Source: Alphaproteobacteria bacterium (lineage in GTDB: Bacteria > Pseudomonadota > Alphaproteobacteria > JANQMY01). From it: DNA of 64,000 nucleotides. How positions within the stretch are numbered: position 1 is the first letter of the stretch; every line of letters begins with the position of its first letter. Under the pieces are notes generated by a model. That model worked only from the letters and a program-made list of their open reading frames with translations. It had not been told where the DNA came from and made no database searches. Where the stretch lies: NCBI GenBank assembly GCA_028289425.1, contig JANQPL010000006.1, forward strand, positions 1 through 64,000, in the 5' to 3' direction. Of this stretch, positions 298-26,223 are shown in pieces. The translations under genes and the position numbers were made by a program.

Positions 298-864
298 CTA
301 CTCAGTCTTATATTTCGCTCCGATCAGCCCCATACCAGTAAGAACCCATTTACTCGTGGACTTGTCCAGAGAAGTAGCCCGCCCTTTGAAACCCTGCATC
401 GACCCAAACGGCCTAAATCCTGCGTCAAGGAATACTTGTTCATTCAGTCGATTTGCATACTCCAAAATGGACACCACAGCTTTCCGTTTATCCGAATCGG
501 AAACTGTTTTTCCATGAAGAATGCGATCACGAATTTTTTCCGCTTCCTTTGCTTTTGCGACCGCTGCTTGAGAAATGTCCTTACCCATTGTGATTTTGTA
601 CAGCTCCCGAAATCGCGTTCGTGTCATGTGGTGATTGTCCACCGTTGACCTGGCAATCGTCGAGTTAACTCTATGAAGCTTCACCACGGCTCCATACACG
701 GTCATGTTTTGTGCAAGTTCGACCTGCGCGAACAGATAGCTGATCGATACATCCCAAGGATAATCCGTAGCCAAACTTGGAAAGTGGGATAAGTAAGCAC
801 GCAAACTTTCAGGAAGGGCTTCGAACAATTTAAGAATCCCAGCGGTTCTCGGTATCGGCATCAT
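298..864 (-). CDS. Uncharacterised protein with HEPN-like RxxxxH motif
   Basis: A soluble, mostly helical protein of about 188 residues with no signal peptide or membrane segment. The central part contains KIRDRILHGK, which fits the R-x4-H active-site pattern of HEPN ribonuclease or RNA-binding domains. It is followed by a conserved-looking tail (GFRPFG, then LDKSTSKW). The frame is open to a TTG at 918 and an ATG at 897. The start at 864 (or the adjoining ATG at 861) was preferred because AAAGGA precedes it. Base composition is clearly more AT-rich than the neighbouring genes, which suggests acquisition by transfer. No toxin or antitoxin partner is seen beside it. HEPN assignment rests on the motif only; a specific function is not claimed. 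Confidence 0.6.
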   Translation of the reverse strand: MMPIPRTAGILKLFEALPESLRAYLSHFPSLATDYPWDVSISYLFAQVELAQNMTVYGAVVKLHRVNSTIARSTVDNHHMTRTRFRELYKITMGKDISQAAVAKAKEAEKIRDRILHGKTVSDSDKRKAVVSILEYANRLNEQVFLDAGFRPFGSMQGFKGRATSLDKSTSKWVLTGMGLIGAKYKTE

Positions 865-1107
865 GAGTCCTTTCACCAGTTGAACGATCACATTCATGCA
901 AACCGCTTGAGTTGACAAACAAAAGAGATCGCCTTGCCGGTCGGCGTATTACTGTTCAGTATCCGCATCGTCCGGCATCCATGTCGATCACATCGAAATT
1001 TAAGATGGAAGCATCTGACGGTTTGAAGAGTTTCTTGCAACTCGTAAAATGATCAATTGGGGCCAGACCTTTACCTATCCACCGGTCCTTACAAACCCTT
1101 CTACTTC

Positions 1108-3497: not shown

Positions 3498-4421
3498 TCA
3501 GATGTCCGTGCGGTGCTGCGCAAGGGTATCGAGCGTTGCGTTGTGATCGCCCACAATCCGCAGCACGATATGGTCGGCGCCCGCGTCGACAAAGGACCGA
3601 ATGAAGGCCAACACATCTTCAACGGTTCCGCCGAAACAAGCCTGCACCTGCCGCAGGAGATCCGCCGGCGCACCGTAATAATCCTCAAGATAGGCGTTGA
3701 TCTGCTGCTCGCTGGTTGCGCCGTCGGCACCGACGCACACGGTCAAATAGACGGCCGTTATGGGCGTTTCGCGACCGGCTGCCCGTGCCGTCTCGGCCAA
3801 CAGGGCGTGCTGCGCTTTAATTGCTTCCGCCGTTGGGCCGATGGGAAACCAACCGTCATAGAGCCTCGCGGCGCGCCGCACGCCTGGGTCCACATTGGCA
3901 GCAAGCCAGATGGGTGGCCCGCCCGGCCGATAAGGCGTAGGCGCGACAACTGCATCTTTTAGCGTCCATCGGCCGTCCCAAGTGACCGGTTCGCCGGTCC
4001 AAAGGGCACGGCATAATTCGAACCCTTCGATCATCCGTCCCACGCGTTTTTCGAACGGCACGGACGCCGCTTTGAATTCGGCGTGAATGGGCGGCAGGTC
4101 GGCACCGATCCCGGCGCCGATGACAAGCCTGCCCTCGCTGATCTGATCGATGGTGGCGAGCTGCTGCGCCAGAATGACGGGATTGCGCAAGGCCGGCAGC
4201 AGCACCGCCGTGCCCAACATCACCCGCGGTACGGCGGACGCAATGCCGGCCAGCAATGTAAGGGGATCGTAGCGGGGACGTGAAAACAACGAGTCGCCGA
4301 TCCATAGGGAGTCGAAACCCAATGCTTCAGCGCGTTTCGCGGCGTCGATCAGGGGGCGTGCCTCATGAACACCGCGCATAATGTTTTCGCGCGTGGGCAG
4401 CAAGTATCCGATTTTGGTCAT
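3498..4421 (-). CDS. LLM-class flavin-dependent oxidoreductase
   Basis: 307 residues of the luciferase-like monooxygenase family, a TIM-barrel flavin enzyme using reduced FMN or F420. The N-terminus IGYLLPTRE, then GFDSLWIGDS near residue 37, LGTAVLLPALRNP near 70 and GRLVIGAGIG near 98 are typical barrel strands of the family. The length is usual for the F420/FMN oxidoreductase branch. The substrate is unknown. Neighbouring same-strand genes (an epoxide-hydrolase-like protein, a GYD protein, an NTF2-like protein and an acyl-CoA ligase) suggest a role in oxidation of small organic compounds, but this is inference. Confidence 0.88.
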   Translation of the reverse strand: MTKIGYLLPTRENIMRGVHEARPLIDAAKRAEALGFDSLWIGDSLFSRPRYDPLTLLAGIASAVPRVMLGTAVLLPALRNPVILAQQLATIDQISEGRLVIGAGIGADLPPIHAEFKAASVPFEKRVGRMIEGFELCRALWTGEPVTWDGRWTLKDAVVAPTPYRPGGPPIWLAANVDPGVRRAARLYDGWFPIGPTAEAIKAQHALLAETARAAGRETPITAVYLTVCVGADGATSEQQINAYLEDYYGAPADLLRQVQACFGGTVEDVLAFIRSFVDAGADHIVLRIVGDHNATLDTLAQHRTDI

Positions 4422-4465
4422 CAGCGGTCTCTGTCGGTCCGGCGACCGGAACGATCCCCTTCAGT

Positions 4466-4855
4466 TTATTCGGGCTGGGGCCATTTATTCATAATTGTGG
4501 GCAAATCGAAATAGTCGCGCCACATGGTGATGCGCCCGTTCTCCACTTTGAAAACGCCGGTAACGGGCAGCTCCACCCATCCATCGGGAAGGTGATGGCG
4601 GTCCAGCCGCTCGATGAACACCACGTCTCCATTGACGGCGATGTGTTTGTAGACGAACTCATTCTCAAGGGTCGGTGCGAAGAAGGGCTCCAGCACCTCT
4701 TTAACACCCTCTGGTCCTTGGACGGTGCCCATGGGTATGTTGGTGTATTCGCAATCGCTACTGACGAAGGACGGCGCCTTGTCAAATTCCTTTCGGCCCA
4801 TGGCCTCGAGGAAAGATTTGATGTGATCGATTAGTGTTGCGGCATCGGCACTCAT
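4466..4855 (-). CDS. Limonene-1,2-epoxide hydrolase-like protein
   Basis: 129 residues with the NTF2-like fold of limonene-1,2-epoxide hydrolase. The catalytic set is visible in order: Tyr and Asn in EYTNIPMG, Arg and Asp in FIERLDRHH, and the last Asp in WRDYFD. In the characterised enzyme the Asp-Arg-Asp triad activates water held by Tyr and Asn, opening an epoxide to a diol. The start at 4855 has a good SD (GGGAGGA). An in-frame extension to 5008 has no such support and would read into a repeat. Substrate may differ from limonene; steroid and fatty epoxides are used by relatives. Confidence 0.85.
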   Translation of the reverse strand: MSADAATLIDHIKSFLEAMGRKEFDKAPSFVSSDCEYTNIPMGTVQGPEGVKEVLEPFFAPTLENEFVYKHIAVNGDVVFIERLDRHHLPDGWVELPVTGVFKVENGRITMWRDYFDLPTIMNKWPQPE

Positions 4856-4950
4856 AGGGTCCTCCCGAGATTGGAAACATCTGAAGAAGATAACCGGCCA
4901 TGTGATGCCCGCAATTACGCGGGAGGTAATCGATTTGTGCGTCGTCCAAC

Positions 4951-5067
4951 CTTCGTCATTGCCGGACAAGCGGACGAACCTCCGCGTGGACCCGGCAATC
5001 CGCTGCAAATCTTCCGGATCACCGGATCATCGCGCTCCACCGGAGCGCTTGTCCGGTGATGACGACG
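4951..5067. repeat. Compound REP element (cgtcattgccgg ... gatgacg type)
   Basis: The element begins with cgtcattgccgg and closes with cttgtccggtgatgacg, so its two ends are near-complementary. Inside are the words cccggcaatcc and ggatcaccggatca. The latter and the terminal 17-mer recur exactly in the element at 25808-25906. It lies between the epoxide-hydrolase-like gene and the GYD gene, and is non-coding. Confidence 0.8.
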
Positions 5068-5087
5068 TTTGGATTGAGCAACTGCCC

Positions 5088-5381
5088 CTAGGGCAGCGAC
5101 TGCACGATCTGCCGGAACTCGGATTCCTCGAACGCTCGGAAAGATTTGGTGCGCACATTGCCTTCGCTGGAAATCGTCAGCAGCAGACGGGCGACCGTGT
5201 CGTCATTGGGGCCTTCGATGATGGTCATGATGTCGTGCTCGCCGGTCAACAAATAGAACCCTTTGACCTCCCCGCCATGATCGGCGGCGAGCTTCCGGAC
5301 CGCTTCCAACCGCATCGGCGACTCTTTGATGTTGGCGAGACCTTTTTCGGTGTAATCCGCAAAGACGATGTATGTGGGCAT
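5088..5381 (-). CDS. GYD domain protein
   Basis: 97 residues forming a single ferredoxin-like GYD domain: an N-terminal strand PTYIVFADYTEKG, then EAVRKLAADHGGEVKGFYLLTGEHDIMTIIE, which is the family signature. Biochemical function of the family is unknown; many members sit near oxidative or degradative genes. The ATG at 5381 follows a GGGAGG SD. Upstream in-frame ATG codons (to 5417) lack one. Confidence 0.85.
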   Translation of the reverse strand: MPTYIVFADYTEKGLANIKESPMRLEAVRKLAADHGGEVKGFYLLTGEHDIMTIIEGPNDDTVARLLLTISSEGNVRTKSFRAFEESEFRQIVQSLP

Positions 5382-5480
5382 GAGCGCCTCCCTTGACATG
5401 CGTGTGGGGTTCAACACCTGAAAGGGAATGGTACACCCGGCGGCCCGGGGTGGTAAGGGCTATAGGGAACACGAAGTGAT

Positions 5481-5535: not shown

Positions 5536-5994
5536 TTACTTTGCCGCCCAACCGGTCTCGTATTTGGCACTCATGGTGGGTTCGACCACGCGCAGATGTT
5601 TGATCTTCCACGCGCCATCGACTTTCACATAGTCTTCTTCATAGCGGCCGGCCTGCCACCGCGCCTGGTTCCCTTTGCGAAAAGTGGATGGCAAAATAAT
5701 GTACCAACTGCCGGTCGCACGATCCCCGTGGATCTCGATGATGGGATTCGTGACCATGTGCATGGTGAAGCTCATGGCTTTTTGGAAACCCGTAAACAGC
5801 TCTCGGATCGCGGCGTGGCCTTCCGCTTTACCGATGCCCTCTCCTTCCCAAATGCCGTCTTCCGTGAACAAAGTTACGATCCGGTCGGGATTGTGGTCGT
5901 CATCGCAGATCTCACAATAGCGGGCCTTGAGCTGTTTGATCGCTTCCAGGTCCTCCATGCGCGCGATACGGGCTTCCAGGCTGCTCTCATCCAT
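5536..5994 (-). CDS. SnoaL/NTF2-like protein
   Basis: 152 residues of the SnoaL_4-type NTF2-like fold. It opens with a long helix containing IKQLKARYCEICDD, then LFTEDGIWEGEG. The central strands include MHMVTNPIIEIHGDRATG and the last strands DGAWKIKHLRVVE. Relatives include scytalone-dehydratase-like enzymes and small subunits of ring-hydroxylating dioxygenases, as well as proteins of unknown role. An AAGGAAA SD supports the start. It lies 67 bp downstream of the AbiU2-like gene on the same strand, possibly in the transcript that starts at the acyl-CoA ligase. Confidence 0.82.
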   Translation of the reverse strand: MDESSLEARIARMEDLEAIKQLKARYCEICDDDHNPDRIVTLFTEDGIWEGEGIGKAEGHAAIRELFTGFQKAMSFTMHMVTNPIIEIHGDRATGSWYIILPSTFRKGNQARWQAGRYEEDYVKVDGAWKIKHLRVVEPTMSAKYETGWAAK

Positions 5995-6061
5995 GACCGT
6001 TTCCTTTCGATATTTGCCGTGTGCAGCTATTGTATCTCTCGTATGGGTGGCACTGACTTGC

Positions 6062-6898
6062 CTATTCTAAAACTTCGATTCTGCAGCCATGCCAGAGAGC
6101 TTTCGCCCGGCGAATGGCCAACTCACGACTATCGTCCCACATAAATGCAGCACCGCGAATTGAGATGTTCAAATCATCAACAATGGAAATCGTCATGTCC
6201 ATTAGTGACTCCACTTCCGGATATTTTGGAGGGTCTATCGGTTGACCATGCCGCTTTTCTTCGTTTGTCTCTGTAAAGAGATGGGCAATCCGCTTGTGCC
6301 TGAGGTTTCGTAGTTTTCTGAGTTCATTCAATCCAACGGTATTTTTCGCTCTTTCTATTGCCCGCTCGAGCCTATCGATGCTCTTTTTTGCTTCTTCTGC
6401 GGCAATTCTTAAACCGCCCGCTTCAGCTTCTTTTGTTGCAGTCGAAATACAATTTGGATCAAGATTATCCGTATACAAACGTATATCTTTATATGCATTT
6501 GATCTTAGATACTCCGCATGTAGTGCCGCCTTAACGCCTGGATCGTTTACCAGTGAAATCACGGTGCGGATGTTCTCACCCGCTTCTGCGGGATCATCCC
6601 AGATTGCTGAAAGCTGAATCAAACCAGCCTTAATGCTCATCTCTACGAACAGGTTGAAAGCAACAGCAGCCCGAGATCTAGGAATTTGTGACGACAAGAC
6701 ATCAGAATAGACAGCAATCCGATTTGCTTCGTGAATCGACATAAGCTGCAATGCATGACCAACAAGCAATTCTGTTTTTGATTTCGCCTGCTGCAATCGC
6801 TCGTCGACAGAAAGGTCACCTGGCCATCTGGCGGCACTAGACGTCGGTGTCAATTTTTTGCCGAAGCTTCTAAAGATTTTTGACAGATTCCGCCACAA
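6062..6898 (-). CDS. AbiU2-like HEPN domain protein
   Basis: 278 residues, soluble, almost wholly helical. The middle has heptad-like Lys/Glu-rich stretches (about residues 145-190), followed by LRNLRHKRIAH near residue 203. That matches the R-x4-H HEPN motif as found in the AbiU2 family of abortive-infection-type proteins. An SD (AAGGAGG) formed right at the stop codon of the acyl-CoA ligase lies six bases before a TTG at 6898; a GTG at 6904 is too close to it. The gene therefore appears translationally linked to the ligase. Its AT content is markedly higher than that of the flanking genes, pointing to recent acquisition. AbiU2 proteins are poorly characterised, and phage defence here is only a possibility. 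Confidence 0.68.
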   Translation of the reverse strand: MWRNLSKIFRSFGKKLTPTSSAARWPGDLSVDERLQQAKSKTELLVGHALQLMSIHEANRIAVYSDVLSSQIPRSRAAVAFNLFVEMSIKAGLIQLSAIWDDPAEAGENIRTVISLVNDPGVKAALHAEYLRSNAYKDIRLYTDNLDPNCISTATKEAEAGGLRIAAEEAKKSIDRLERAIERAKNTVGLNELRKLRNLRHKRIAHLFTETNEEKRHGQPIDPPKYPEVESLMDMTISIVDDLNISIRGAAFMWDDSRELAIRRAKALWHGCRIEVLE

Positions 6899-6911
6899 AT
6901 GCACTCCTCCT

Positions 6912-8456
6912 TTAGCGCAGCTCCAGTTTCGCGGGCACGCTTTTACGAAGTTCGAATTTCAGCACCTTGCCGGTCGCGTTGCGCGGCAGGGCATCGACGA
7001 CGGTCATGTGCACCGGTTGCTTAAACCGCGCCAAGCGCCCGTCAACGTGGGAGGCAATTTCCGCCATGGTCAGCGCGTGGCCATCCTTCAACGCCACGAC
7101 CGCGCAGCCCACCTCGCCCCATTTGGAATCTTCCACGCCGATGACCGCCACTTCCGCGATCTGCTCAAGTTCGTACAGTACATTTTCGATTTCGGCGGGA
7201 TAGACATTCTCGCCACCGGAAATGTACATGTCCTTCACCCGGTCCTCGATATAGAAGAAGCCTTTCTCATCTTGCCGGCCCACATCGCCTGACCGGAACC
7301 ATCCGTCCACGAAGCATTCTTCATTGGCCTCCGGACGATTCCAGTAACCCGGCGTGATGACGGGCCCGCGCATCCAGATTTCACCTAGCTCACCCGGGTC
7401 CGCTTCCGTGCCGTCTTCCCGCGCGATCTTCATTTCGCAATGCATGAGCGGCTTGCCGCAGGAGCCAACCATTTCCGGCACATCTTCGGGCGGGATGATA
7501 CAGCTCGACGCTGTGGTTTCCGTCATGCCGTAGCCTTCTTGGATGACGATCCCGCGCTCATACCACCAATTGACCAAGGCGTTAGGCACGGCTTCGGCGC
7601 CCGCCAACACGGTTTTCAGCCGCGACAAATCCGTCTCCGGATTTTTGGGGTGCATCTTCAGCGCGTTGAAAATGGCCGGCACGCCGATGAAATGGGTAAT
7701 GCCCAAGTCCGCGCTGTTAAAAGCATCGAGCGTTTCGCCCGGTTCGAAGGCGCGCTGAACCACGGAGCAGCCGCCCGCATACAGCACAGGACAGGCGAAT
7801 ACTTGAATGCCGCCTATGTGGAAGAGCGGCATGGTGGCCAAGTTGACCGAGCTTCGATCGATGCTGCCGAGGGAGGCCGCATTGGTAGCGGCAAAGAACA
7901 GCATTTCATGGGTGATGATCACGCCCTTGGGCCGCCCGGTGGTGCCCGACGAATACATGAGGATGGCCATCTCCTCGAGCGGTTGCTGAAGCGTTTTGGT
8001 CAAGAGCGGCGTGGCCTCTGCAAGCGCCGTCTCATAGGGTGACGGGCCGCCCAGGCCGTCCGTGACAATCCAGTGTTTGACGTCTGTGGTCTTTTGGAGC
8101 TCTGCCGCCAGCTCCGCAAAGCCGTGATCCAAAAAAATGATGTCGGGTGTGGAGTCCTTGATGATGAATTCGAGCTCGGGCGCGGTAAGCCGCCAATTGA
8201 GCGCCAGACTGGCCGCCCCCATGCGCCAGCAGCCCAATATGATCTCCAACACGTCCGTGGAGTTCATATTGAGAAACCCCACCCGGTCGCCCGGCTTCAC
8301 GCCGAGAGACGTGAGATGGGCCGCCACCCGCCCCACCCGATCGTTCATCTGGGCGTAGCTGAACACGCGGCCGCTGGCGAGGTCTACAAGGGCCCGGCTC
8401 TCGGGCGCGACTTTCGCGTGATAAGCGGTCCAATCAACGGTGAAGGGTTTCGACAT
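6912..8456 (-). CDS. AMP-dependent acyl-CoA synthetase/ligase
   Basis: 514 residues of the adenylate-forming superfamily, activating a carboxylic acid with ATP to an acyl-AMP and then an acyl-CoA. Core motifs are present: MYSSGTTGRPKGV (ATP-binding P-loop), EGYGMTET, the GWFRSGDVG region with the adenine-contacting Asp, KDMYISGGENVYPAEIE (hinge), and the C-terminal catalytic Lys in PRNATGKVLK. Size and motifs fit long- or medium-chain fatty acid or aromatic acid ligases; the acid is not predictable. The start at 8456 follows GGGAGA; a longer frame to 8522 lacks support. It heads a probable transcript with the AbiU2-like and NTF2-like genes. Confidence 0.92.
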   Translation of the reverse strand: MSKPFTVDWTAYHAKVAPESRALVDLASGRVFSYAQMNDRVGRVAAHLTSLGVKPGDRVGFLNMNSTDVLEIILGCWRMGAASLALNWRLTAPELEFIIKDSTPDIIFLDHGFAELAAELQKTTDVKHWIVTDGLGGPSPYETALAEATPLLTKTLQQPLEEMAILMYSSGTTGRPKGVIITHEMLFFAATNAASLGSIDRSSVNLATMPLFHIGGIQVFACPVLYAGGCSVVQRAFEPGETLDAFNSADLGITHFIGVPAIFNALKMHPKNPETDLSRLKTVLAGAEAVPNALVNWWYERGIVIQEGYGMTETTASSCIIPPEDVPEMVGSCGKPLMHCEMKIAREDGTEADPGELGEIWMRGPVITPGYWNRPEANEECFVDGWFRSGDVGRQDEKGFFYIEDRVKDMYISGGENVYPAEIENVLYELEQIAEVAVIGVEDSKWGEVGCAVVALKDGHALTMAEIASHVDGRLARFKQPVHMTVVDALPRNATGKVLKFELRKSVPAKLELR

Positions 8457-25795: not shown

Positions 25796-25908
25796 AACTC
25801 CCAAACTCGTCATTGCCGGGCTTGACCTGTTAATCCAAGCATTCAATACCTAATGAATCAGTTGGATCACCGGATCAGCGGGCGAAGCCCTTGTCCGGTG
25901 ATGACGAA
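25796..25908. repeat. REP element, left flank of the GIY-YIG gene
   Basis: It starts with a 32-bp sequence (25796-25827, beginning aactcccaaactcgtcattg) that is repeated exactly at 26222-26253. It runs on through ggatcaccggatca to cttgtccggtgatgacg (ends 25906), which matches the element at 4951-5067. The two ends are roughly inverted copies of one another. The start codon of the endonuclease gene lies 22 bp further on. Confidence 0.85.
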
Positions 25909-25929
25909 AAAGGAAAGGCGAAGTCCTCA

Positions 25930-26223
25930 ATGGCTAGAGGTGGATTCGTCTACATTCTCAGTAATCGACCAAATGGAACACTATACGTCGGAGTGACGAA
26001 CAACCTCATCCGAAGGACGTATGAACACAGAGAGGGACTCGTTGCCGGTTTCACAAAACGTTATGGCGTGAAAAAACTTGTCTACTTCGAACAGCACGCC
26101 ACGATGCCTCTTGCCATACAACGTGAGAAAAACATCAAACACTGGTCCCGCGCGTGGAAGATTGATCTCATACGCAGCCAAAATCCCAAATGGCAAGATC
26201 TATACGAAGAAATCGCGGGATAA
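25930..26223 (+). CDS. Small GIY-YIG endonuclease family protein
   Basis: 97 residues, nearly all one GIY-YIG domain. FVYILSNRPNGTLYVGVT holds the two-strand signature. NNLIRRTYEHREG gives the catalytic Arg and His region, then FTKRYGVKKLVYFE and IQREKNIKHW, where Glu is the metal ligand. Stand-alone versions of this size are widespread in alphaproteobacteria and have no settled role. The ATG at 25930 begins the domain; an upstream extension reads REP DNA. The stop codon overlaps the first bases of the downstream 32-bp repeat, so the gene fits exactly between two REP copies. Confidence 0.9.
   Translation: MARGGFVYILSNRPNGTLYVGVTNNLIRRTYEHREGLVAGFTKRYGVKKLVYFEQHATMPLAIQREKNIKHWSRAWKIDLIRSQNPKWQDLYEEIAG

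Follow-up and report, generated by a model that had tools for sequence, protein, structure and literature searches.

An AbiU2-family HEPN gene, probably acquired recently, between an acyl-CoA ligase gene and a SnoaL/NTF2-like gene of an alphaproteobacterium

Introduction

How does a gene of the abortive infection type come to lie among metabolic genes, and what would it do there? This question is raised by a minus-strand gene in the 64,000-nucleotide stretch of alphaproteobacterial DNA analyzed here (the window). AbiU2 is described in PMC3710099 as a predicted HEPN domain protein with an Rx4-6H RNase motif which occurs in restriction-modification operons. A first-pass annotation, made from the letters of the window, had proposed an AT-rich, AbiU2-like HEPN gene with an RHKRIAH motif behind an acyl-CoA ligase gene and had regarded it as a possible recent arrival. 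Our analysis favors, at slightly better than even odds (about 0.55), a single acquired gene for a defence-type HEPN RNase of the AbiU2 family which sits in the gap between the ligase gene and a SnoaL/NTF2-like gene and is read together with the ligase transcript. The features on which this reading is built are listed in Table 1.

Table 1. Positions in the window of the AbiU2-type gene, its predicted key residues and the flanking features
Feature	Position	Strand	Evidence
GYD, LEH and luciferase-like monooxygenase genes	3498..5417	-	PF08734, PF07858, PF00296
SnoaL/NTF2-like gene	5536..5994	-	PF13577, E 1.2e-30; 82% identical to the congener (G001) protein
Segment without counterpart in the congener, ~0.9 kb	6009..6911	-	Gap of 30 bp in G001; 3' limit set by eye
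AbiU2-type HEPN gene	6062..6904	-	PF18734 match, E 5e-18
Predicted catalytic motif R202-HKRIA-H208 (R-x5-H)	6281..6301	-	R202 and H208 invariant in 8/8
Conserved acidic residue D103	6596..6598	-	Invariant in 8/8 aligned members
Shine-Dalgarno sequence AAGGAGG	6906..6912	-	First base is the last A of the ligase stop TAA
Acyl-CoA ligase (AMP-binding) gene	6912..8456	-	PF00501, E 3.7e-85; 87% identical to the G001 protein

Results

The reading frame of the gene is unbroken and encodes 280 amino acids from GTG 6904 or 278 from TTG 6898. Its match to the Pfam family HEPN_AbiU2 (65.7 bits, cut-off 26.8) spans residues 43-270 of the protein and profile positions 7-193 of 193, and it is the sole match to this family in its own 5.4-Mb genome. 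The profile search thus supports the assignment of the predicted product to the AbiU2 family of HEPN proteins, and the RHKRIAH motif named by the first-pass annotation is found intact at residues 202-208. We aligned the protein with members from seven further genomes of the same class. Five of these (G051, G053, G061, G072 and G080) belong, with our own, to a set of eight genomes that matched PF18734, of which G020 and G039 score below the cut-off and were left out; G168 and G700 were added, while further genomes of the 16-genome class scan were not included. Three columns of this eight-genome alignment are invariant, namely D103, R202 and H208. The active site of HEPN RNases is described as an Rx4-6H pair which is probably assisted by an upstream acidic residue, and the position after the motif arginine is typically occupied by N, D or H (PMC3710099); in the protein studied here it is H. 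Metal-independent RNase activity using R202 and H208 is predicted for the protein. Searches of the PADLOC-DB models and of NCBIfam gave no family matching the protein at E <= 1.

Structure prediction yielded models of low confidence, with a mean pLDDT of 40.8 from the single sequence and of 46.8 (pTM 0.41) from AlphaFold2 with a five-sequence alignment, the latter being helical. With this low-confidence AlphaFold2 model as query, Foldseek returned no match at E <= 0.001 and the best VIA-align Z was 6.2. Fold matches to the vinculin tail, PRORP, DUF1342, YicC and others were set aside as mostly unrelated helical proteins hit by a weak model. No HEPN title occurred among the best 50 matches of each fold search with a model of this quality, and no PDB chain matched the protein sequence below E 0.4.

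At its 5' end the gene is closely joined to the ligase gene, whose own start (ATG 8456) was chosen by comparison with the congener. The ligase stop TAA (6914-6912) is followed by AGGAGGA (6911-6905), GTG (6904), CAT and TTG (6898). The candidate starts thus lie 7 (GTG) and 13 (TTG) bases past the ligase stop, which is the interval that had been annotated, and the Shine-Dalgarno sequence is indeed built on the stop codon, with which it shares one base. Since this sequence is spaced 7 nt from TTG 6898 and 1 nt from GTG 6904, the TTG is more likely to be the start. Residues before about position 30 vary among the aligned relatives and therefore the comparison favors neither codon.

The description of the gene as wedged between metabolic genes holds as well, as Pfam assigns the ligase to one side and the SnoaL/NTF2-like protein to the other. 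On the same strand, the ligase gene lies upstream and the SnoaL/NTF2, GYD, LEH and luciferase-like monooxygenase (LLM) genes lie downstream. Every adjoining gene covered by the Pfam scan is metabolic or ribosomal, and none is a recognized partner. A scan for minus-strand terminator-like sites, in which the counts were at shuffle level, found none between the ligase gene and the AbiU2-type gene nor between the latter and the NTF2 gene. Promoter-like counts, from a scan limited to certain promoter types, were at shuffle level too.

To trace the origin of the gene, the interval between the ligase and NTF2 genes was compared with that of one congener, G001, a fragmented assembly of 630 contigs (97% complete, 10% contamination). 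A 3309-bp contig of this assembly (C356, locus L003) carries the syntenic block of S6, ligase, NTF2 and GFA genes, whose proteins are 80%, 87%, 82% and 77% identical to their counterparts here. From ligase stop to NTF2 start it measures 30 bp in G001 versus 917 bp in our genome, and a PF18734 search of the 630 contigs returned nothing. The gene is thus present here and absent from the same gap in this congener, and universal conservation at this place, which would have counted against an arrival, does not hold in G001. In both genomes a similar Shine-Dalgarno sequence precedes NTF2 (junctions compared by eye), and therefore the extra segment extends roughly from 6009 to 6911. No mobile-element ends, terminal repeats or target duplication were found at the site beyond matches of chance size: the two ends of the segment share 6-bp matches only, one of which is AAAGGA, as expected from two Shine-Dalgarno sequences.

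The congener differs at a further point of the same locus, where GFA directly follows NTF2 and the GYD, LEH and LLM genes are absent; the best match to the monooxygenase in the whole G001 assembly is 33% identical (E 1.3e-28). Because the congener also lacks these three genes, the locus is variable in general; the AbiU2-type gene accounts for one of two differences, and the operon around it is not otherwise conserved. We also inspected other ligase loci (L004-L031). As they contain no match to S6, NTF2, GFA or AbiU2 at E <= 1e-3, they provide no outgroup for the ligase-NTF2 gap.

The AT-rich composition reported for the gene is borne out by a GC content of 0.458 and a GC3 of 0.427. Among 52 window ORFs of about 150 amino acids or more, which were picked mechanically, no other has so low a GC3 (mean 0.679, sd 0.067, the AbiU2 ORF included). 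For the LLM, LEH and GYD genes GC3 is normal, at 0.685-0.782. Together with the rarity of the gene described below, its composition favors gain here over loss in G001. The proposal of a recent single-gene arrival is thereby supported, by absence in the congener and by foreign composition, and with one congener for comparison we consider a recent single-gene acquisition probable. The further suggestion of the first-pass annotation, that the gene borrows the host promoter, may apply.

Two other AT-rich genes were observed in the window. The ORF at 298-918 (-), with 206 amino acids and the second lowest GC3 of the 52 (0.483), contains an R-x4-H motif resembling that of HEPN proteins (RDRILH) and matches HEPN_Swt1 (E 0.036) and the PADLOC Cas13a model (E 4.5e-4) weakly. 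It has no match in the congener and matches in 3/279 class genomes, its own included. The terminal 7 kb of contig C2 thus hold two HEPN-like AT-rich genes. The other, at 25891-26223 (+), is a small gene for a GIY-YIG endonuclease (PF01541, E 3.7e-15; GC3 0.505).

The distribution of PF18734 in the class is patchy: at E <= 0.001 it matches 16 of 372 genomes, of which 13 also exceed the cut-off. Relatives at the protein level are rarer still, occurring in 2/385 class genomes and 2/398 phylum genomes, our own counted in each. An alignment query matched 3/385 class genomes, two of which are members of the query alignment while the third (G160) matches positions 73-253 of 275. A single-protein scan with our own protein found nothing in genome contigs, tblastn against plasmid and phage collections gave no match, and a first alignment scan of viral contigs was likewise empty. 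Alignment queries recovered three loci in genome contigs and one in viral contigs, and a further scan returned the same viral contig only. The relatives named in this way are from the MAG RHODO3 (35% identity), Bradyrhizobium sp. CCBAU 51627 (32%), Y36 (31%) and the IMG/VR contig IMGVR_UViG_3300050821_016136 (33%). All four are near full-length relatives at 31-35% identity and have the stretches QIPxSxAA, A(I/L)WD and LWxxC in common with our protein.

These relatives differ from our gene in their genomic places. Both Bradyrhizobium genes are situated just upstream of purD (L048 in CCBAU 51627, L049 in Y36), and on the IMG/VR contig a serine recombinase ORF, which combines DUF2924, Resolvase and Recombinase domains, is followed after about 0.7 kb by the AbiU2-like gene. 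In RHODO3 (L047) the AbiU2-like gene overlaps an upstream ORF by 4 nt; its next neighbor, on the opposite strand, is a DUF5677 gene, and about 4 kb beyond there is an ORF with a helicase domain. Another of the closer relatives, that of G700, is a weak PF18734 match (29.5 bits), and its gene converges with a DUF2726 gene. With the RHODO3 relative as query, nothing was found in viral contigs or plasmids. The ORF that overlaps the RHODO3 gene (L047 1436-2056 (+), 206 amino acids, no Pfam match) may be an operon partner of AbiU2; PMC3710099 records the Bxe_C0808 HEPN family as such a partner. In Y36 a 419-aa ORF without Pfam match (L049 4458-5717 (+)) lies upstream of the AbiU2-like gene and has RSRATHGG near its C-terminus, possibly a further R-x4-H HEPN motif. 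The purD-side site looks variable, as the upstream neighbor differs between Y36 and CCBAU 51627.

More distant family members were inspected at their loci as well. The G053 member (L043), which overlaps hsdS by 4 nt and is embedded between hsdS and hsdR of a type I restriction operon, matches PF18734 with E 2.6e-19 and has the same R and H residues, but it has 215 amino acids and is 17% identical to our protein. The G061 member (L044) and a carbon-nitrogen hydrolase gene are arranged convergently, with genes for a GMC oxidoreductase and a luciferase-like monooxygenase nearby. The G051 member (L036) begins 170 nt after a gene with a transketolase domain, in the same orientation. The family is thus found in defence or mobile company at some loci and among metabolic genes at others. 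The first-pass annotation regarded defence islands as the usual place of such genes. In this family a position elsewhere is not unusual, as two relatives adjoin purD and two distant members adjoin metabolic genes, although the G053 member is enclosed in an hsd operon.

Discussion

We propose that one AbiU2-family HEPN gene entered the gap between the acyl-CoA ligase and SnoaL/NTF2 genes horizontally; the direction of this change would be gain. Because its own Shine-Dalgarno sequence overlaps the ligase stop codon, the gene is probably part of the ligase transcript and would be translated by re-initiation or by coupling to ligase termination. For its product we predict a helical HEPN RNase which needs no metal and would be held inactive as long as the cell is healthy. 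Phage infection may be the trigger upon which RNA would be cut and phage production stopped, in most cases with the loss of the cell itself. In favor of the proposal also speak the patchy distribution of the family, the relative behind a serine recombinase ORF and the member in a type I restriction operon. By profile, and with its R-x5-H motif, our protein falls into the Pfam family of the AbiU2 of Lactococcus lactis. In that organism abiU2 is paired with abiU1 (PMC3985639), whereas here the scanned adjacent genes are metabolic or ribosomal. Cloned L. lactis abiU2 alone was reported not to inhibit the growth of E. coli (PMC3985639), and therefore a simple always-on toxin is disfavored. This growth test also weighs against the proposal as a whole, as do the missing recognized partner, the lack of PADLOC, NCBIfam, plasmid and phage matches, the site devoid of mobile-element ends and target duplication, the low-confidence fold and the comparison with a single, fragmented congener. 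The function of AbiU2 looks little studied: in the mostly non-subscription literature covered, this growth test (PMC3985639) is the sole experiment.

The gene could also be a passenger which was acquired in the same way, is intact because it is recent and provides no useful defence, being unexpressed or having left a partner behind. We regard this as possible but not probable. No recognized partner stands beside the gene, while the RHODO3 relative overlaps its upstream 206-aa ORF, for which no homologue was detected in our genome (in a search without positive control), and the lack of a growth effect of L. lactis abiU2 alone (PMC3985639) points in the same direction. On the other hand, the frame is unbroken, the catalytic residues are intact and a strong Shine-Dalgarno sequence is well spaced from the TTG. 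Moreover, the CCBAU 51627 relative likewise has no listed same-strand ORF of at least 130 amino acids within 1 kb upstream. Alternatively, the gene may have been present in the ancestor and lost in G001, as the GYD, LEH and LLM genes maybe were, so that no recent arrival took place. The comparison is with one congener, and this genome is shorter at two places of the same locus. The GC3 of the AbiU2-type gene is far from that of its neighbors, though, whereas the other three genes are normal in this respect, and protein-level relatives are confined to two of 385 class genomes, one being our own. We therefore consider ancestral presence unlikely.

A regulatory role, in which the HEPN protein was recruited to regulate or process its metabolic transcript, appears more improbable still. 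It would suit the tight position behind the ligase gene and the two distant family members that adjoin metabolic genes, among them the one behind the transketolase-domain gene. MtlR-type proteins, which reside in mannitol operons, are a recorded precedent of an operon-resident HEPN protein (PMC3710099, Table 1). They resemble our protein in residing in a metabolic operon but belong to another HEPN family, tied to mannitol genes and not to PF18734, and their RNase motif is recorded as 60% conserved (PMC3710099, Table 1), whereas it is intact here. Furthermore, both flanking genes are retained in the congener, where the AbiU2-type gene is missing between them, and the same neighbors recur at no other locus inspected. 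An acquired defence-type gene read with the ligase transcript remains our preferred explanation.

The AbiU2-type gene adds a member, at an unusual location, to a known family and does not constitute a new system. As a case of a mobile defence-type gene it is credible but ordinary. The presence of the gene here and its absence in G001 form a pair which offers a natural comparison. As searches for defence genes lean on clustering in islands, a lone AbiU2-family gene among metabolic genes, with no PADLOC or NCBIfam match, is a small example of what they overlook. A broader and rather doubtful idea is that our protein and its closer relatives (about 263-289 amino acids, with QIPxSxAA, A(I/L)WD and LWxxC) may form a distinct, sparse AbiU2 subfamily which moves on its own into housekeeping or metabolic surroundings, not into defence islands, and, bringing its own start-proximal Shine-Dalgarno sequence, would be expressible from any operon that receives it. 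If true, this would be phage defence in a plug-in form without a promoter, which searches based on islands fail to see.
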